Virus record (IMG/VR): IMGVR_UViG_3300037842_000032
Coordinates: 1-31,992 of that record
DNA: 31,992 nucleotides
Origin: a virus
Reading direction: 5' to 3' (one strand)
Shown: one piece after another, positions 640-29,786 of the stretch
How the letters are laid out: the number at the start of each line of letters is the position of its first letter
How positions within the stretch are numbered: position 1 is the first letter of the stretch
Position numbers and translations under genes: made by a program
Notes under the pieces: model-generated
The model's input: only the letters and a program-made list of their open reading frames with translations
The model's database searches: none
What the model was told of the DNA's origin: nothing

Positions 640-2388
640 CTAAAAACCACCTTGAACATTTGCTCTAGCATTTTTTGCTCTTCCTAATGTTGCTTGGTTA
701 GCTGTTTTTCTATCTAGGGCTTGTTGAGTACTTACATCTGTACTTACCACATAAGCTCTTACTGGTTTTTGTTGTGCTCCTGCTATTGTTTGTGCAAGTT
801 GGCTTGTTTCTGTTGCTCCCACTACATTGAATGCTGGTGGAGTTGATATTGCTGGAGTTGGTACTGATCCTCCTGCTCCTCCTGTTGCAAAGCTAGGTGG
901 TGCTGGTTCTTTAGTTGATGTTATTTTTTTAATATTAGCAAAACCTGCAGCAAGGACTGATGCTGCTCCAACGAATCCAAATACTCCACCTTGACCAAAA
1001 GCTTTAGTAGCACCAGCATAAGTGTCTATTATCGCTTGTGTTATAGCTATTGCTTTTCCAAATCTACTATTCTCACCAACTAAACTAGCTAATGAACCTA
1101 GTGCTCCAGTAATTGCTGAAACCTTTGCGTCTGCTATTTCTTTGTCTCTTTTCTTTTCAGCTGCATCAGATTCAGCTTTAAACTTATTTAATTCATTTTG
1201 AGCATCTATAAAGGCTTGTGTTCCTACCTTAAAACTATCTATTCTTGTTTGTAAAGTTTTCTCTATCTCTAATCTTTCCTCTGCTTCTATTTCTTTTAAC
1301 TTTTCTAATCTTAAAACTTCATTGTCTATTAATTCTGCATTTGCTAATTTTGTTATTTGTGCTACTTCTTGAATTCCTTGTGCTTTTGAAGTCTCTAAAT
1401 CAATTAATTCTTTTTCTAATGCTGCTTCATTTGTTAATTGTTCTGATCTTTGTCCAGATATTCTTGCTCTTATAGCTGCTAATTCATTTAATGCATCTTT
1501 TTTTCTAACTTGTGCATCAATATTATCTTCATCTAATGCTAATTCTGCTTGTGCTGCATCTACTGCTATTTGAGCATTTTCTAATAGTTTTTTCTCTTGG
1601 TCATCTAGTATTGTAGCTAGTTTTTGATTTGCAGCAATTCTTTCTGTAACTGCAAGCCTTGTGTCATCTCTTAATTGTCTTTGTTGTTCTGCTTGTCTAT
1701 CATATTGTTCTATTAAACCTCTATTTATTGCCTGTGTTACTTTGTAATCATTGTTTAATTTTGTAATGTTTTTGGCTTGGTCTATTGTTGCTTTAGTATA
1801 TTCTGTTGTTGCTTCTATAACTTTTTTAGTTGTTTCTACAACTTTATCCACTGTGTTATCTACTCCTGTTAATACATCTGCATATTCTTTTCCTGCTTCT
1901 TTAACAGAATCAAAAGCTCCTTTAAAATCACCTTGAAACACTTTAACTACCGCATCACTTAAATATCCTAAAACTTCTAATGCAGAATTAAATCTTTCAA
2001 TAAGATTATCTTTTATTGCCTGCCCAAAAGCCTTTAAACTTTCTACTGGATTTTCAAATATATCTTTAAAGAAACTAACTACCGTTCCTATATTAGCTTC
2101 TATAAATTTAAATAAATCATTAAAAACTAACTTTAATGCTGTAGTAGCTGTAGCAAATGTGTCTACAACTTTTTGATTAGACATAAATGTATCTTTAAGA
2201 ATATTTAATACAGCACTAAATACTTTTATAGCAACATTAGCTTTAAAAATATTATTTAAACTAAACACTGCTTTACCTGCTACTTTTGCTCCTTCTTGTA
2301 TACCTTTTAAACCGACACCTACTTTTTGTAAGTTTTTTTCAGCATCTTTAGCTTTTACATTAATATCAATATCTATTTCTTTAGCCAT
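640..2388 (-). CDS. Tail tape measure protein
   Basis: A 582-aa protein that fits a short tape measure protein, which sets tail length and is threaded inside the tail tube. Residues 1-180 mix amphipathic and hydrophobic helices. Residues about 180-420 are a long Glu/Lys/Gln-rich coiled coil (for example EALRLEKLKEIEAEERLEIE-like heptads). Residues about 425-500 are Ala/Gly-rich and hydrophobic (ITGALGSLASLVG, TYAGATKAFGQGG), typical of tape measure C-termini. At about 1.5 angstrom per residue it would give a tail near 90 nm (inference). Its ATG overlaps the stop of the preceding small ORF (TAATG), indicating coupling. No lytic domain is visible. Confidence 0.85.
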   Translation of the reverse strand: MAKEIDIDINVKAKDAEKNLQKVGVGLKGIQEGAKVAGKAVFSLNNIFKANVAIKVFSAVLNILKDTFMSNQKVVDTFATATTALKLVFNDLFKFIEANIGTVVSFFKDIFENPVESLKAFGQAIKDNLIERFNSALEVLGYLSDAVVKVFQGDFKGAFDSVKEAGKEYADVLTGVDNTVDKVVETTKKVIEATTEYTKATIDQAKNITKLNNDYKVTQAINRGLIEQYDRQAEQQRQLRDDTRLAVTERIAANQKLATILDDQEKKLLENAQIAVDAAQAELALDEDNIDAQVRKKDALNELAAIRARISGQRSEQLTNEAALEKELIDLETSKAQGIQEVAQITKLANAELIDNEVLRLEKLKEIEAEERLEIEKTLQTRIDSFKVGTQAFIDAQNELNKFKAESDAAEKKRDKEIADAKVSAITGALGSLASLVGENSRFGKAIAITQAIIDTYAGATKAFGQGGVFGFVGAASVLAAGFANIKKITSTKEPAPPSFATGGAGGSVPTPAISTPPAFNVVGATETSQLAQTIAGAQQKPVRAYVVSTDVSTQQALDRKTANQATLGRAKNARANVQGGF

Positions 2389-3407: not shown

Positions 3408-6400
3408 TTATGGACATGCTGGACAAGCTGTTGGTCCTGTTAATGAGCTTCCACTCCAGTAGTAATATTCGCCAAAGCTTGCTGTATACCATGAAGGTGT
3501 TGTTCTTAAATCACTACATGTATCATCAGTATATATTTCGGTTGCAGTAGATACATCATTGCTATTCATGTAGGTTATCACAGTTTTAGTTGTGTTACAA
3601 CAAACATTTTCTGCGTCTATAATAGATCTATATAATACTTGACTTCCACAAGTTAAAGTAGTTGTTGTTGTAGTGGTTGTTGTTGTTGTACAAGAACCAG
3701 TAATAGTTCCATAAGAAGTAGGGTTAGCTACATAATCCGTTCCTATTATATCATAACAATTTGCTCCATCTGTTGATATAGTAATGTTTGTGTTACCTAT
3801 CTGATACCCTGCATCTAATTGTACATAAGTTGTCTGTGTGTCGCTTTGTCTTTCTACAACAAATACGTTGTCATCTGGAACTACTGATGGACATCCTGTT
3901 TCACCTGTGTCTGTAACCGTTCCAGCACTTGGTACATTATCTGCTACTTGCCCTGTTACTCTATAAAGAGCTCCACTAGCATCTTGAACTCTAGCGTTTG
4001 GTGCAAAACTCGCACCTAAAGCACCAGTATCTTGTGCTGACCTATATATTTTATTTATATTTGGTTCTTCACACTTTGTTAATTCCCAATAATACGTTCC
4101 AGTACATTCTAAACAGCTTCCATACCACGTATAGTCTCTAACTAAATTATCTTGAGCATCACAACTTTGTGCATCAATCCATAGATCACTTTGACTACCA
4201 GTTATTGCAACTGGATTAGAATAACAATCACCATTGTATTCAACTGTGTCTGGGAAACTGTCTACGCTGTTACCAAATGTAATAAGAGCATCTAATCCTC
4301 CTGTTGCACAATCCCCATATCTTCTCCATATATTTAAAGTCGGTTTAGTTGGAGCTACACATTCTGGTTCAGGTCTAACTGGACATCCACTTACACTTTC
4401 CCAAACCTGCAAACTAGTTGGTTCGTAATATCTATATATGTTTAAATCTGTATAGAATCCTTGTGGTGCTCTATTTGGTGTTCCAATATTAGCTGCACTA
4501 GTATACATGTGTTCGGATGATGTTGCAGATAATAATGTTTTATTGTTATCAAAGTAGTAAAATCCTTGCACTCCACCTTCATCACAGAAGTTTTGTAATG
4601 GATTAAAACCTTCCCCTAAATAAAATAATACATTTGCATCTACACATGTTGTACAAACACTAAAGGTTGTTCCGTTCCAATATCTTCTTTTTGTGTTATC
4701 TGAATCTAATGAATAATAACCTGCAGCAGCTAGAGTTACCGTACAGGTTCCTGTATTTGTAGGTCCTACATAATTCCATAATTGTGTTGCAGCACAAAAA
4801 ATAGACTGTGTTACTGGATCATTTCCTTGTGGATCTATATAGTAAAAGTTTTTACTTTGGTGATTTTCACAAACATCATTAGAAGAACTATATCTTAAAT
4901 AAGCTACACTTTTAGTTTCTAAACAAGTATCTACTAATGGTGCTGTTTGTGTACAAGTTTCACATCCTACTCCTTCTGGAGCTCCCACTGTTACACCGTT
5001 ATTTGAAGCCCAATCACTTTCAAAAGCTGTGGCACTAGAATAATAACATTGACCATCTATTTCTATGTAAGAACCTGTTGTGGTATTACCGACTGTAAAT
5101 GTATCTCTTGACCTTATGTATCTTGTTTGTCCTACTACTGTTGTTTCTGGACACCCTGTTGTTATGTAATAATTGTAAACTATTAATTGAACTTCTCCTG
5201 TTCCAAATACAGTTGTTACTGTTTGACTTGTACTAAATGTTCCTCCTGCATTAGCTACTGTGGGTTTAGTTCCTACCCATTCAAATCCACTATTTAACTC
5301 AACATCTGAACTAAAATTAAATACAGTTCCAGCATTTTGAGATTTAATTAAACCAGCTTGGTCTCCAGTAATAACATAACCGCTTGATGAACCGCTTATA
5401 TTAGACGTATCTATAGCTAAAGTTATATCAATAAGAGTTGTATCTGTCCATTGAATTGTATGTGTTCCTGATGCAGTTATAGTACCATCAGAAGCTGTAC
5501 AAGTATAAATATATGTATCAGCCACTGTTTCTGTAAATGTAATTGTTTGAGTAGAACCACTTGCAGAACCACCAGACCATGCATAACTTGTAGGTGTAAA
5601 TCCAGAAGCTGTTGCTGTTAATGATACATTGTTATTTGTTGTTTTAGCAGTTGGACCACTAATAGTCACAAATTCTGATGTTGCTTGGACCGTTCCTGAT
5701 AAAGTAGTGTCTACTACCAAGTTACTTGTTCCTACTGTTCCTTGTGCATCAACTATAACTGGTCCTGATGTAAATTGATAACCACTATTTGCGTTTACTT
5801 GTGTTGAAAATGAATAAGTTTCTCCTTCTTGTAAGAATAATTGTTTCCCATCTTGATCCCCTGTAATGTTATAAGCTGCTGTAGTAGGTGATGAAATACT
5901 ATTAACTATATTTAATTCTATAGTATATAATTTAGGTGTCCAAAGAATTACGTGAGTATCTTCAAATTCTGCACTATCATCACTATCTGTAGCTGTACAA
6001 GTATATGTTACGTTTCCTGTTGTTGCGTTTGTTACACTTACGCTTTGTGTTATTTCTCCTGCTGCATCTCCTCCTGCCCATAAATAGCTTGCTGTTCCTC
6101 TGAAATTATTTGGAGTAGCTGTTAGTGTTACTGTCTCTGTTTGTTCTTTAGTTGTTTCTCCTGTAATGGTTACACTTCTACCTACGTCACAAGTCTTATC
6201 AGCTGTAGGAGTTAAACTATCTACAGAACATAATGTAGAGTCAGCACTACACTCTGTACATTCATCTTCTGGGTCTACTGTTGTAGTAGTTGTAATTGGA
6301 GTAGAACCTCCTATAGAAACTGTTAACTCATTAATTAATTCTAATTTACTTCTTCCTGTATTAAAGTCTGTTTCTATTTCATTAATTGTATAGTTCCTGT

Positions 6401-8414
6401 CAAATATTGCTATTGTGTCAGCAAGAATAAACTCTTGTAGCATTTTAATAGGCAAATAAGCATAAACAGTAGTTAATCTTCTGTTGTTCTGAAATACTTG
6501 AGCTACGTAATTTTGATAATAAACTTTAAATAATGTTTCGTCAAAGTCTGTGTTGTTTGTGTATTCATTAATCTCATTTTTAAAATTAATGTTAGCTTGT
6601 GATTCATCTTTGTCTATATCGAAACTATTTGACGGAATATTATAATTAGTTATATCAATATAATTTGCTGGTGTTGTATCTGGTGATCCTCCAGTTTCAG
6701 TAACTAAAAATCTTATTGCATTTCCTGCTGTTTGTCTATATCTATAAAATAATAAAGGATTTCCAAAATAAGGAGAGTTATCATCACTTACAAACCACCC
6801 TACTTGTGCTGTTGTTGGATTACTCACATCATACATTCTTTCAAACTTCATGTGTTCAAATGGAAGGTTTACTGTGTATGTTTCTGGATTAGCATCATAG
6901 TAATCATCACCACTATATTCTTCTGTTGCCCAACTAATGTTGCTCAATTGTTCATGTTGCGTTGCTAGTTTTGTACCAAGACCTTCATATTTAAATTCAA
7001 CTTCTTTATAAGGTAAAGCCACATTTACACTTCCTTCACCTTGATCTACATCATTTGTGATATCCCACACGGTATCTGAATCACTGTAATACGAGTCTAG
7101 TGTTTTGACAATAATGGTTCCATTGTCTGTATAAGCTGTTAAATTAAACATCTTAAATATACCAGTTAAAAAGTCTATTACTTTCATCTCTGGTATTTGT
7201 TGTGATATTATAAACCTTCTAACATTGTTAAAAGTATACGTGCTTGTTAAATTATATTCGTAGCTCGTGTCTGGTACGTATGACGCTGTTAAAGTTAATC
7301 CAGTCTGAACGTTTAAATCAAAAGTAGTAGCAGAGGATGTCATAAATATAGTATATGTACCATTTGACAATGTGCCTGATAAGTTTCTAGAGTTGCTGGT
7401 TATAGTCTTTTGGTCAAATAATTCATTACCATTTCTATATATAGATATAGTAGCGTCTATACTTGTATCTGCTTGAATATCTAAAGAATATTCTAAATAC
7501 CCACCATCTGGAACACCTGTTACTTGAAACCTATCTCCATAAGATGTTACTTGTTGAATCTCACTATTATAATTAATATAAAATCCTGTAACTTGTTTTC
7601 TTATTTCTGTTTCTTCAAATACTTTTCCTTTCTTCCTATGAAGCCACATATACAAACCATAATAAGTCTCATTAGTTGTATTAAAGAAATCATTACTAAA
7701 AGTTAAACCATATCTATCTTCTATAGCTTTTACTATTGCATCTATCTGTATTGCATATTTTAACTCCTCCCAATAAACTCCTGAATGTACAGGGTTTGTT
7801 GATATATCTGATTTAGGTTTTAGATCTCCTCCGTTTGAATCTGGATAAGCTGTTTCTCCTGTGCCTTCGTAATAAAGTCTTGTAGTATGTGATATTAAAG
7901 GAACTACTATACCAGATGGATATATTATTGTTGAACCATCTGTTCTATTATATGTTATAGTTTTTTTATCCTCTAATGCTGCTTTTATATTAGTTGAGTC
8001 GTAATCTACATCAAAGTCTGATAAGTCTAATGAACTTAAATCATCATCTCCTAATAAGTCATTTAAATCAATAGTATTTCCAAAAAAAGTTATTCTATAT
8101 GTGTGTGGTATTCCATCTTTTAGATCTACTCCATCAAGTTTTATTTTACCAGTTTTAAATGGTCTTGAATTTAATTCTAACGTTGATTCTTTTTTTAATC
8201 TTGCATCAAATCCATTTGTAATAGAGTAGTTGTAATAATGCAGGAATATTTTATTGTTATTTTTTGAAGCAGGTATAGAAAAAGTCCTAGTAAAATCTAC
8301 AAATATTTTAGAGATATCTTTAACGTTCTGAATAGATTGAACAATATTTACAGACTCATCACTAAATAAATCAACTCTATTTCCTTCTATATATAACTGT
8401 AAAGTGTTTCTCAT
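3408..8414 (-). CDS. Giant baseplate/adhesin tail protein with Ig-like and Cys-rich repeats
   Basis: A 1668-aa structural protein, the largest in the genome. Residues 1 to about 700 are soluble beta-rich sequence resembling Bacteroidetes-phage baseplate or tail-tip proteins (start MRNTLQLYIEGNRVDLFSDE). Near residue 708 is a short poly-Thr linker (ITTTTTVDPED). Residues about 730-1090 hold PKD/Ig-like repeats with TVTLTATPNNF and SLTATASGFTPTSYAW motifs. From about 1090 to the end come Cys-rich repeats with recurring YYW/RYW-NG-x-C elements, broken near residue 1580 by 11 consecutive Thr. It ends in YYYWSGSSLTGPTACPACP. Likely role: tail tip plus host receptor binding. Its ATG overlaps the upstream stop, and the glycosyltransferase follows immediately. 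Confidence 0.8.
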   Translation of the reverse strand: MRNTLQLYIEGNRVDLFSDESVNIVQSIQNVKDISKIFVDFTRTFSIPASKNNNKIFLHYYNYSITNGFDARLKKESTLELNSRPFKTGKIKLDGVDLKDGIPHTYRITFFGNTIDLNDLLGDDDLSSLDLSDFDVDYDSTNIKAALEDKKTITYNRTDGSTIIYPSGIVVPLISHTTRLYYEGTGETAYPDSNGGDLKPKSDISTNPVHSGVYWEELKYAIQIDAIVKAIEDRYGLTFSNDFFNTTNETYYGLYMWLHRKKGKVFEETEIRKQVTGFYINYNSEIQQVTSYGDRFQVTGVPDGGYLEYSLDIQADTSIDATISIYRNGNELFDQKTITSNSRNLSGTLSNGTYTIFMTSSATTFDLNVQTGLTLTASYVPDTSYEYNLTSTYTFNNVRRFIISQQIPEMKVIDFLTGIFKMFNLTAYTDNGTIIVKTLDSYYSDSDTVWDITNDVDQGEGSVNVALPYKEVEFKYEGLGTKLATQHEQLSNISWATEEYSGDDYYDANPETYTVNLPFEHMKFERMYDVSNPTTAQVGWFVSDDNSPYFGNPLLFYRYRQTAGNAIRFLVTETGGSPDTTPANYIDITNYNIPSNSFDIDKDESQANINFKNEINEYTNNTDFDETLFKVYYQNYVAQVFQNNRRLTTVYAYLPIKMLQEFILADTIAIFDRNYTINEIETDFNTGRSKLELINELTVSIGGSTPITTTTTVDPEDECTECSADSTLCSVDSLTPTADKTCDVGRSVTITGETTKEQTETVTLTATPNNFRGTASYLWAGGDAAGEITQSVSVTNATTGNVTYTCTATDSDDSAEFEDTHVILWTPKLYTIELNIVNSISSPTTAAYNITGDQDGKQLFLQEGETYSFSTQVNANSGYQFTSGPVIVDAQGTVGTSNLVVDTTLSGTVQATSEFVTISGPTAKTTNNNVSLTATASGFTPTSYAWSGGSASGSTQTITFTETVADTYIYTCTASDGTITASGTHTIQWTDTTLIDITLAIDTSNISGSSSGYVITGDQAGLIKSQNAGTVFNFSSDVELNSGFEWVGTKPTVANAGGTFSTSQTVTTVFGTGEVQLIVYNYYITTGCPETTVVGQTRYIRSRDTFTVGNTTTGSYIEIDGQCYYSSATAFESDWASNNGVTVGAPEGVGCETCTQTAPLVDTCLETKSVAYLRYSSSNDVCENHQSKNFYYIDPQGNDPVTQSIFCAATQLWNYVGPTNTGTCTVTLAAAGYYSLDSDNTKRRYWNGTTFSVCTTCVDANVLFYLGEGFNPLQNFCDEGGVQGFYYFDNNKTLLSATSSEHMYTSAANIGTPNRAPQGFYTDLNIYRYYEPTSLQVWESVSGCPVRPEPECVAPTKPTLNIWRRYGDCATGGLDALITFGNSVDSFPDTVEYNGDCYSNPVAITGSQSDLWIDAQSCDAQDNLVRDYTWYGSCLECTGTYYWELTKCEEPNINKIYRSAQDTGALGASFAPNARVQDASGALYRVTGQVADNVPSAGTVTDTGETGCPSVVPDDNVFVVERQSDTQTTYVQLDAGYQIGNTNITISTDGANCYDIIGTDYVANPTSYGTITGSCTTTTTTTTTTTLTCGSQVLYRSIIDAENVCCNTTKTVITYMNSNDVSTATEIYTDDTCSDLRTTPSWYTASFGEYYYWSGSSLTGPTACPACP
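3658..3690 (-). repeat. ACA/ACT trinucleotide run encoding 11 Thr
   Basis: A near-perfect ACN triplet run within the giant tail protein gene that encodes 11 consecutive threonines between two Cys residues. Such a run can change copy number by slippage and would then alter linker length without changing frame. Confidence 0.85.
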
Positions 8415-9358: not shown

Positions 9359-9889
9359 CTATTGTTTTATTGTATAATCTAAAAATTCTTCTACGTCTAA
9401 TCCGTATGCTTCTAATAATTCCTGTGGTAATCTTTTAAATCCTTTCTCAAAAGGTTTAGTAAAGAATAAGCTTGCTTTGATTCCTTTGTTCCATATTGAT
9501 CTGGAAATAATATAAGCTGTAGATTCATAACTTGTAAACTTTCCTTTAGCATCTCTAAATTGAAATCTTCTTGCTTCTACCCATTTCTTAATACCTCCAG
9601 ACAATCCACCTTTCTTTCCTGATCCTGTTCCAAACTTAAATGGACTATTAGTGCTTTCTGGATATGTGCTTGTTGCTCCTTTAACTCCTTCGTCTTGGAA
9701 CTTACCATAATCTTCCATCTCAAACTTTAAGCTAAATGAATTAGGCATAACATCTATTATACCTTTAAGAGAATTATACAGCTGTTTAGATACGTTCTTA
9801 TTCTTTTTAGTTAGGTTAGCTCTAGACTGACTAATTACATAATCCTTAAATGCTTCTAATGCTTTTCTTGTGTTCTCTTTTTCTAACAT
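9359..9889 (-). CDS. Tail completion protein, HK97 gp10-like (putative)
   Basis: A 176-aa protein with the usual features of head-tail/tail completion proteins of the gp10 type: an N-terminal helix (TRKALEAFKDYVISQSRANL), a central YGKFQDEGVKG segment close to the family's Y-x(n)-E-x-G strand, a Gly-rich basic loop (TGSGKKGGLSGGIKKWVEAR), and a C-terminal helix. It overlaps the preceding gene by 7 nt. Position between a tail-terminator-like gene and baseplate genes agrees. Assignment rests on pattern and context. Confidence 0.6.
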   Translation of the reverse strand: MLEKENTRKALEAFKDYVISQSRANLTKKNKNVSKQLYNSLKGIIDVMPNSFSLKFEMEDYGKFQDEGVKGATSTYPESTNSPFKFGTGSGKKGGLSGGIKKWVEARRFQFRDAKGKFTSYESTAYIISRSIWNKGIKASLFFTKPFEKGFKRLPQELLEAYGLDVEEFLDYTIKQ

Positions 9890-10338
9890 ATCGTCATGTC
9901 GTTTTGTATCTGTACATCAAATGTTGCCACCCATCCAGCTAACTTGTTTTCAAATCTATCTACAAAAGGCTCACAAGCTACATCTGCATCTACTTGATAT
10001 TTTTCTGTATATAAATCTCCTCTTTGTAGTAATGCCATTAATCTGTCTAACACTCCTAGTTGTGTGTTTAATACATCTTGCTCATTGTCATTACCTAAAA
10101 ACAAATCTGTTGTTTCTTCTTTGCTTACATCTACTATATCCATACACATAACAGAAATATTAAATGTAAGTACTTTAGTGTTTATTGTACATTGATTAAC
10201 CATTACGTGAGATAAAGGAAATATAGTCTGCTTATTTAAATCTACATTATCAAAGCTTCCATATGATACATTGTTTACAAATGGTTCTGCTTCTAGTGTT
10301 TCTTTTATTTTGTTTGTTAAATCGTAAAATCCTGTCAT
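9883..10338 (-). CDS. Putative tail terminator/neck protein
   Basis: A 151-aa protein (MTGFYDLTNKIKETLEAEPF...) of the size and composition of tail terminator or neck proteins: an N-terminal helix that places the protein at a ring, then alternating beta strands (HVMVNQCTIN, LTFNISVMCMD) and a final strand (GWVATFDVQIQND). The start codon overlaps the stop of the -1 frame of the upstream chaperone gene (ATGA), which is one of the main arguments that the frameshifted frame is real. Confidence 0.6.
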   Translation of the reverse strand: MTGFYDLTNKIKETLEAEPFVNNVSYGSFDNVDLNKQTIFPLSHVMVNQCTINTKVLTFNISVMCMDIVDVSKEETTDLFLGNDNEQDVLNTQLGVLDRLMALLQRGDLYTEKYQVDADVACEPFVDRFENKLAGWVATFDVQIQNDMTIC

Positions 10339-11083
10339 CTTGTTTTCTGTTTGATTAAATTTCTTTCTGTTTGTAATTTGTCTTGCTCATATGCTAAATA
10401 AAATAAAGCTGAATGTACATTTAATTCACTGACAGATTCAATTTTGGTTGCATCTGATCCAGCCAATCTATATAGCGAGTTATACCATCCCCACTTCCTA
10501 GTAAATCCTCCCTCTGTTGAATAGTCATCCCCTTGATCACCTCTTGATTCAAAGAGTTCAGGATAGTTTTCAGTAATTCGTTCTTTAAATTGTAAAAAAA
10601 AAGTATAGAACCCATAACTATATCAAGTGGCATCTGTTTGTATTTTTCAGATTCTTCTGATCCTTTATAGTCTTCTATTAGGTATTTATCTTTTAGTGTG
10701 TCTTTTATTGGTCTGTATAATACTGCCATAGCTTTGTGCATGTTGCTCCAATCTCCTAGTGTAGTATCAAGGTCTATATATTCACCTAATGTTATTTTAT
10801 CTAAATCTGGAACAAAGCCATAAGCTATTCCATCCATTGTAAAAGTAGGTACAAGTTTAGCATCTTTATTAAACATATCATTTATAATTCTTACAACTTC
10901 CATTACACTATTAAACTCTACTTTAATTACATTCTGTAAATTTAGATTACAAAATATTTCTACTGTCTTATGTAACAAGAAATTGGAGTTCTGATTAGCA
11001 TCTGTGTTTATCTTGTTGTACTTCTGATATTGCTCTAAACTTATCTCTCTTAAAGATTCTGGTACTTGTATCTTAACTTTCAT
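10335..11083 (-). CDS. Tail assembly chaperone, -1 frameshift product (about 249 aa)
   Basis: Read in frame zero from ATG 11083 to codon 163, then -1 from position 10595 to TGA at 10337-10335. The -1 frame opens only after a TGA near 10627 and contains no Met codon, so it cannot start on its own. It encodes a plausible conserved domain, including FKERITENYPELFE, RKWGWYNSLYRLAGSDATKI and VHSALFYLAYEQDKLQ. Its stop overlaps the next gene's ATG (ATGA). A T9 run lies exactly where the shift is needed. This matches the lambda G/GT strategy in which a minority extended chaperone loads tail tube protein on the tape measure. Function is inferred from this architecture; the tape measure gene lies further downstream than usual. 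Confidence 0.75.
10421..11083 (-). CDS. Tail assembly chaperone, zero-frame product (220 aa)
   Basis: The unshifted product begins MKVKIQVPESLREISLEQYQ. The upstream ATG at 11131 lies inside a terminator hairpin and was rejected. Residues 1-160 are a folded alpha/beta domain with GIAYGFVPDLDKITLGEYIDL-type features common in phage chaperones of this class. The zero frame continues past the slippery site for 57 residues (LLGSGDGITRYIDWLDQM...) and overlaps the -1 frame for about 175 nt, so this DNA codes in two frames. The start follows a copy of the late leader (ATTGTAATAATATG). Confidence 0.8.
   Translation of the reverse strand: MKVKIQVPESLREISLEQYQKYNKINTDANQNSNFLLHKTVEIFCNLNLQNVIKVEFNSVMEVVRIINDMFNKDAKLVPTFTMDGIAYGFVPDLDKITLGEYIDLDTTLGDWSNMHKAMAVLYRPIKDTLKDKYLIEDYKGSEESEKYKQMPLDIVMGSILFFYNLKNELLKTILNSLNQEVIKGMTIQQREDLLGSGDGITRYIDWLDQMQPKLNLSVN
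10595..10601 (-). promoter_or_regulatory. Slippery heptamer T TTT TTT for -1 frameshifting
   Basis: A nine-T run (10602-10594) gives, in frame zero, CTT TTT TTT TAC, containing a perfect X XXY YYZ heptamer (all T) at codons 162-163. A -1 slip here joins the 163-codon head to the open -1 frame. A stimulatory RNA structure was not computed. Confidence 0.75.
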
Positions 11084-11115: not shown

Positions 11116-11142
11116 AAAAAAAGGGAACCATTTCTGATTCCC
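11116..11142 (-). terminator. Rho-independent terminator upstream of the tail block
   Basis: On the minus strand GGGAATCA pairs with TGGTTCCC across a GAAA tetraloop (8 bp, one G-T), followed by seven T. It ends the unit of small genes (11834-11171) before the chaperone gene. Confidence 0.85.
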
Positions 11143-12336: not shown

Positions 12337-13509
12337 TTACCAGATATGATATTCTCCTTTGTTAGGATCTTGTAGTTGTGAGGTTAACGCATATCTAGCT
12401 GCATCAATACTATGGTCTCCAGACATAGGGTTAGGCTTTTGTAGTGTGTTACCTTGCTTGTCTTTCATCCAGACATAACCCTGAAGCTCTTTAATTAAGT
12501 TCTTTGATCTTTGTGTAACAAATATACTGTTTTGGTTTATTAGATTAATACCATACACTATACTATCTCTTCCTTTTGTAACTGGGAATACTTGATGTCC
12601 ATATGTATTTAATTCTGCTATTGATTTAGGCTCTGCACTATCTGCCCATAAGCTTCCTAGTATCTGATTGTTTTTTAAGTATTGACTTATGTGTGAGTTT
12701 AACATTCCTTTTCTATAGAGTACTTCATCAAATATATATGCATCATCTAGTTTGTATAGTGCTACTAATGCTGCTTCGTCTACCGAATAACCAAAGTCTA
12801 ATCCATGACACAATAACCTGGCATGAGGTGGTATTACACTTATTTGTTTCCAATCAGGAATACACGCTCCTTCAAGTGTTCCTATCTCACCTAATCCATA
12901 AACCCTCCACCAATTAGCCCAATAAGAGCTTTTAGATGCCTTTAGACGAGCTTTCTCTATTTCCTTGATAATACTATTAGGAAGTTCATTATTGTCCTTG
13001 TAAGTTAACGTAATGAAGTCTGTGTCTTCTGTATTGATTAATTCTTTATCTACCCAGAATAAATTAGTAGGGTTATAATCTAACCATACCTCCCCAGATG
13101 TCCTTATTGATAATTGCTGGTAAGCTTCAAAGCTAACATTATTACACTCATTAATAAATAGATCTGTTCTTCTAGAACCTCTTAACTTGTCTGGTTGATC
13201 TGTAGAAAAGAATTCTATATAACTTCCATTAGAGAATGTGTACTTTAAATTTGTTTTATTGTATTTGTCTTCGTAGTATCTATTTAATCCTTTTAAGATA
13301 TTCAGGAAGTCTTTTAATGCTCCTCTTCTTAAATGAGGTACTGATTCTGATACTACACTTATCTCGCTTCCTGCATTTCGTATTGCTTGGTCTATTAATA
13401 TAGATAGTATACAAATAGTTTTACCAGCTGAAGTTCCACCTCTTACAATCTTAACTCTTTTGTTTAGTTTAAGAAGTTTGTCAAACGCTGTTGTTTTTTT
13501 TACTCGCAT
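12337..13509 (-). CDS. terL: Terminase large subunit
   Basis: A 390-aa DNA-packaging motor. N-terminal ATPase: Walker A GGTSAGKT (residues 24-31), Walker B-like DLFINECN (about 130) with an acidic catalytic residue, and a preceding GSRRTD loop. C-terminal RNase H-like nuclease: acidic positions in HGLDFGYS, LWADSAEPKSI and GDHSIDAARYAL. The start overlaps the methyltransferase gene by 29 nt. It cuts concatemeric phage DNA and drives it into the prohead through the portal. The length is normal to slightly short. The DNA immediately downstream carries a relict of another TerL. Confidence 0.95.
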   Translation of the reverse strand: MRVKKTTAFDKLLKLNKRVKIVRGGTSAGKTICILSILIDQAIRNAGSEISVVSESVPHLRRGALKDFLNILKGLNRYYEDKYNKTNLKYTFSNGSYIEFFSTDQPDKLRGSRRTDLFINECNNVSFEAYQQLSIRTSGEVWLDYNPTNLFWVDKELINTEDTDFITLTYKDNNELPNSIIKEIEKARLKASKSSYWANWWRVYGLGEIGTLEGACIPDWKQISVIPPHARLLCHGLDFGYSVDEAALVALYKLDDAYIFDEVLYRKGMLNSHISQYLKNNQILGSLWADSAEPKSIAELNTYGHQVFPVTKGRDSIVYGINLINQNSIFVTQRSKNLIKELQGYVWMKDKQGNTLQKPNPMSGDHSIDAARYALTSQLQDPNKGEYHIW

Positions 13510-20342: not shown

Positions 20343-20371
20343 AAAAAAAAAGAGGGAAAATTAATCCCCTC
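20343..20371 (-). terminator. Rho-independent terminator after the NinG-like gene
   Basis: On the minus strand GAGGG pairs with CCCTC (with further G-T and A-T pairs inside) and nine T follow. It ends the short early unit (21035-20407) and lies 36 nt past the NinG-like stop. The rest of the 20285-20406 gap is AT-rich without a gene. Confidence 0.85.
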
Positions 20372-29754: not shown

Positions 29755-29786
29755 AAAAAAAAAGGTAGGCAGTTTAGCTACCTACC
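29755..29786 (-). terminator. Rho-independent terminator after the capsid gene
   Basis: On the minus strand GGTAGG pairs with CCTACC across an 11-nt loop, followed by T9. It lies 25 nt after the capsid stop and would insulate the very abundant capsid message. Confidence 0.85.

Follow-up and report, generated by a model that had tools for sequence, protein, structure and literature searches.

Where a run of nine T's joins two overlapping reading frames in a tailed-phage gene, is the change of frame made by the ribosome or by the RNA polymerase? Tail-chaperone frameshifting is textbook ribosomal recoding, and Xu, Hendrix and Duda are said to have described in 2004 conserved frameshifts in phage tail-chaperone genes. 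The locus that raises the question lies on the minus strand of the window, the whole 31,992-nucleotide stretch analysed here (positions 1 to 31,992 of IMG/VR virus record IMGVR_UViG_3300037842_000032).

The 0-frame gene (10421..11083, minus strand) runs from an ATG at 11083 to a TAA at 10421, and its predicted 220-aa, G-like product matches phrog_32199 (E 4e-19); an in-frame ATG also lies upstream at 11131, and homologues begin at 11083. Its T9 run (10594..10602, minus strand) reads CTT TTT TTT TAC in the 0 frame, and CTTTTTTTTTAC at the slip site is the sole occurrence in the whole record. The -1-frame extension (10335..10595, minus strand) would add a T-like domain of 86 aa bearing a KWGWY motif (phrog_38404), its frame being open from about 10622 to a TGA at 10337-10335, with 86 codons past the slip and no Met among them. 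That stop overlaps, as ATGA, the ATG at 10338 of the next gene (9883..10338, minus strand; 151 aa, phrog_30964). The 0 frame continues for 57 codons beyond the slip, and the stretch in which both frames are open and constrained (10421..10593, minus strand) is thus dual-coded; the predicted G-T fusion, about 249 aa long, has residues 1-163 in common with the 0-frame product, whose residues 164-220 form the dual-coded tail. An earlier note had read the locus in this way, and its T9 run with an embedded T_TTT_TTT (now placed at 10602-10594), its Met-free open -1 frame stopping at 10335 within an ATGA shared with the next gene and its 0 frame of about 57 further codons all agree with the present coordinates. 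The window has two more 9-base A runs, at 20343-20351 and 29755-29763; they read T9 on the coding strand and fall between minus-strand ORFs.

Whether this arrangement is an accident of one genome can be judged from its relatives, of which a search of IMG/VR (P0001) returned 45 and a later profile search at least 600. Relatives were sampled with the G-like protein and also with the T-like domain, which makes the second sampling independent of the slip site, and the layout is identical in every relative from both samplings. Among the T-based loci, 77/77 have T9 or T10 ahead of the domain and an open upstream 0 frame, and an in-frame T_TTT_TTT is present in 191/191 G-based sequences. Detection that did not depend on run length gave 403 loci, 316 of them unique, with T9 in 226, T10 in 90 and no other length; the -1 frame is kept in all 316. 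The third (+1) frame hits a stop two codons after the run in 187/191 G-based sequences. A collection of bacterial and archaeal genomes gave a single confirmed match, a Bacteroidetes MAG contig that also carries T9. The programmed change to the -1 frame that had been proposed, with its predicted C-terminally extended product, is therefore borne out at the sequence level by the conservation of the T-run, without exception in 316/316, and of the -1 frame.

Selection acts on both frames downstream of the slip, as the earlier note had suspected. When the -1 protein was randomly recoded with synonymous codons in 75 divergent representatives, the 0 frame stayed open for a median of at most 7 codons in nearly all of them; the observed 0-frame tails are 51-82 codons long in all but the clade of Nonlabens phage P12024 (25 and 16), with a median P of 0.004. 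Third-position changes in the -1 frame point the same way, at 22.9 per column in the overlap and 31.8 outside it, with 42.9 for G before the slip. Constraint peaks over roughly 15 codons directly past the slip, and conservation of the -1 frame begins at the T-run itself. Since conservation of the 0-frame 'SGDGI' is largely forced by the -1-frame KWGWY, the 0-frame tail was given its own test for selection. Nearly all sampled lineages thus have a long dual-coded tail, while the P12024 clade has only 16-25 codons. Relatives L141 and L188 have unusually long 0-frame tails, of 82 and 78 codons past the slip, which shows that dual coding can take in nearly all of the T-like domain.

The run itself is conserved as nucleotides. 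On a tree of the 191 unique sequences, whose length is about 48 substitutions per site, 0 third-position changes fall in the two Phe codons of the run, as against 28, 32, 17 and 10 at four other conserved Phe columns; the two cases of TTC in this set are extra-codon forms with T10. Likewise, where Val precedes the run it is invariably encoded by GTT, whereas all four Val codons occur at another conserved Val column. Given that T9 or T10 is found in all 316 relatives and that third positions in the run never change where other Phe columns change 10-32 times, the run is conserved beyond chance. When 2.9 million viral contigs were searched for forms with TTC in the second Phe position (TTYTTCTAYMATTTAGGRA), 101 stretches came up, all of them family members, and 101/101 of these carry an extra Phe codon that gives T10 before the C, with T7C in 0; most T10C members were retrieved with this TTC-requiring pattern, so that their share is not a frequency, although the absence of T7C within the pattern is unbiased. 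GTT TTT TTC TAC, the T7C form that would be silent in both frames, was accordingly absent from the TTC scan. Searches of the viral contigs with a T8 pattern, or with a non-T wobble base ahead of the Phe codons, brought up only unrelated sequences and no family member; all the scans for exceptions, the TTC scan included, covered one common downstream context, TAY MAT TTA GGR A.

The run is limited in the other direction as well. Variants with three Phe codons are always T10, either as NTT TTT TTT TTC or as CTC/ATG TTT TTT TTT, and none of the 316 unique relatives has T11 or T12, a following TTC or a preceding CTC or ATG interrupting the T's. Forms with two and three Phe codons have interchanged about 12 times on the tree, and the clamp on the run is for this reason not one inherited accident. 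Evolution, as read from these sequences, holds the run at exactly 9-10 T in this family of marine phages, a nucleotide-level length clamp that is a new point relative to the earlier note. Comparison of the relatives, then, establishes the arrangement, the clamp and the selection on both frames as properties of the family's sequences.

Programmed slippage of RNA polymerase at T9/T10 is, on balance, the somewhat better fit to these patterns than classical ribosomal -1 frameshifting. Unslipped mRNA would give the 220-aa G-like protein. Slips of the host RNA polymerase on the T9 template would leave a minor fraction of the mRNAs with one extra U (or two too few), and ordinary translation of these slipped mRNAs would enter the -1 frame and yield the fusion of about 249 aa with its T-like domain. 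The length of the run would set the G:GT ratio, and selection would keep it at 9-10 T. More broadly, a large family of Bacteroidetes-type tailed phages may have replaced the ribosomal G/GT frameshift by RNA-polymerase slippage, with the 9-10 T's as a dial of chaperone stoichiometry; we put the probability of this reading at about 0.57. Programmed transcriptional realignment at poly-A/T runs has precedents in Shigella mxiE and spa13 and in Citrobacter tssM1, the last on A11. Like these, the phage locus has a homopolymer of at least 9 A or T, lacks stimulatory RNA elements and would draw a longer product from a shifted frame; it differs in that the setting is phages and a probable tail assembly gene, with exactly 9-10 T's maintained across a large virus family. 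Transcriptional realignment is marked by a homopolymer of A or T, about 9 or longer, that evolution retains, and such a run is present in the 316 unique relatives. In bacteria, slippage is described at runs of 9 A or T (PMC5009743) and at T runs longer than 8 (PMC3711429), and at mxiE, the T9 precedent, it amounts to 20-30% (PMC4256274).

The strongest alternative, though we hold it the less probable by some way, is a classical ribosomal slip of the lambda G/GT kind: tRNA-Phe would slip in tandem on U_UUU_UUU, and the length of T9 would be owed partly to the flanking residues. Indeed, T_TTT_TTT stands in frame in 191/191, constraint on the neighbouring residues (V/L/I ahead of the run, Y/W/C behind it) could account for its outer T's, and the G/GT cases cited in PMC5009743 are all ribosomal, as befits the established mechanism. 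U_UUU_UUY motifs are efficient in E. coli, where U_UUU_UUC, measured in that species and not in Flavobacteriia, is at least comparable in slipperiness to U_UUU_UUU (PMC4066793). For that very reason a ribosomal site should tolerate U_UUU_UUC, and the relatives do the opposite: 0/101 TTC-bearing members rely on T7C, this change never substitutes although silent in both frames, and TTC occurs only where an added TTT codon restores T10. Runs of 11-12 T are avoided too. As the heptamer is all that ribosomal slippage needs, it offers no reason to restore T10 beside TTC or to avoid T12. The heptamer named in the earlier note is thus present throughout, yet its standing as the working unit is in question, the conserved feature being the homopolymer of 9-10 T. 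Ribosomal -1 sites commonly, though not necessarily, have a downstream stimulatory structure. None was found here above shuffled controls, either upstream of the run or downstream of it, where the earlier note had suggested folding the RNA (75 representatives, mean z about 0.15, pseudoknot-free folding), and Rfam gave no match. Shine-Dalgarno sequences, moreover, are rarely used by Flavobacterium (PMC8710568).

We infer from the clamp that the polymerase rather than the ribosome is the slipping machine; it is possible that both mechanisms act together. The two make opposite, easily measured predictions, and the T9/T10 family amounts to a natural experiment in the length of T-run required. The lambda G:GT ratio is about 30:1 and lambda, likewise, operates at low efficiency, which suits a ribosomal reading; set against the 20-30% of T9 polymerase slippage, it means that the G:GT ratio under polymerase slippage would differ. 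That the conserved element is a homopolymer of fixed length suggests that transcription offers another route to the same pair of products. In a literature of incomplete coverage, transcriptional slippage was nowhere found reported for a phage tail-chaperone gene, which is weak evidence of novelty, and there the terms 'tail assembly chaperone' and 'transcriptional slippage' occurred together only in reviews and prediction papers.

What the two products do is a separate matter. They are probably a pair of tail assembly chaperones akin to lambda G/GT, a function that we assign on account of the two-product architecture, the position after the terminase and a weak structural match to a named tail assembly chaperone. 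As in lambda, a short product and a -1-frame, C-terminally extended one can be read from the sequence, and the genes sit among the structural genes of dsDNA tailed phages. In contrast to lambda, the slip site is a T9-T10 homopolymer of held length, the 51-82-codon tail is dual-coded in nearly all sampled lineages, and the tape measure gene is several kilobases away, so that the pair does not lie directly upstream of it; there is no detectable sequence homology, and membership of the class would rest on architecture and position. The terminase large subunit (12337..13509, minus strand) is upstream of the chaperone-like pair, immediately so in phage P12024L. The tape-measure-like protein (640..2388, minus strand; phrog_3336 E 1.6e-11, phrog_21537 E 2e-28) confirms the earlier placing of this gene about 8 kb downstream, and in several relatives it lies roughly 5-8 kb downstream. 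Between the pair and the tape-measure-like gene is a 1668-aa ORF (3408-8414) whose N-terminus matches phrog_38559, of unknown function, and which has Thr-rich stretches further on.

A programmed slippage pair might instead serve another function, for example as another virion protein or a regulatory protein. Searches of Pfam, PDB sequences and PDB folds gave no match to known chaperones, and the tape measure gene is not adjacent; against this, the pair lies downstream of the terminase among structural genes, has the two-product -1 architecture and, by predicted structure, has one weak hit in BFVD to a named tail assembly chaperone (E 0.049). We consider another function unlikely. Of the lambda G/GT-type assignment made in the earlier note, architecture and position are accordingly well supported, while homology in sequence or solved structure was not found in these searches.

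The nearest cultured relatives, at about 30% identity, are genes 40/41 of Nonlabens phage P12024L (locus L047 12001-12695) and genes 38/39 of P12024S (locus L048 3001-3695). They have the identical T9, the same register and the KWGWY -1 frame, with one residue different in P12024S; they differ in being annotated as two hypothetical genes, in having a -1-frame ATG and in a dual-coded tail of 25 codons (16-25 in the clade). This annotation, in which the ATG of P12024L_41 overlaps the stop of G, was the one counter-example found to the earlier claim, and it would suit a reading of G and T as two separately initiated proteins. That reading is highly improbable: 306/316 unique relatives have no -1-frame ATG before KWGWY, -1-frame conservation starts at the T-run, and T9 is retained in P12024L and P12024S too. 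Each pair of hypothetical genes in these isolate genomes is thus probably one slippage pair, and the second gene may have been annotated with a wrong start. Least credible of all is a sequencing or assembly error, a pseudogene or a phase-variable homopolymer, for although long homopolymers are error-prone and able to phase-vary, no frame-breaking indel occurs among the 316 unique sequences, drawn from many metagenomes, or the two isolate genomes, the T10 forms are products of substitution or whole-codon change, and both frames are conserved.

Flavobacterium phage 6H gene 10 was considered as a further relative on a weak fold match and set aside, as its frames are not a clean -1 pair. The region (L324 10000-10927) takes in this gene, whose end reads TGT TTT TTC TAT, and the unannotated open stretch that follows; it is possibly a diverged or mis-sequenced relative.
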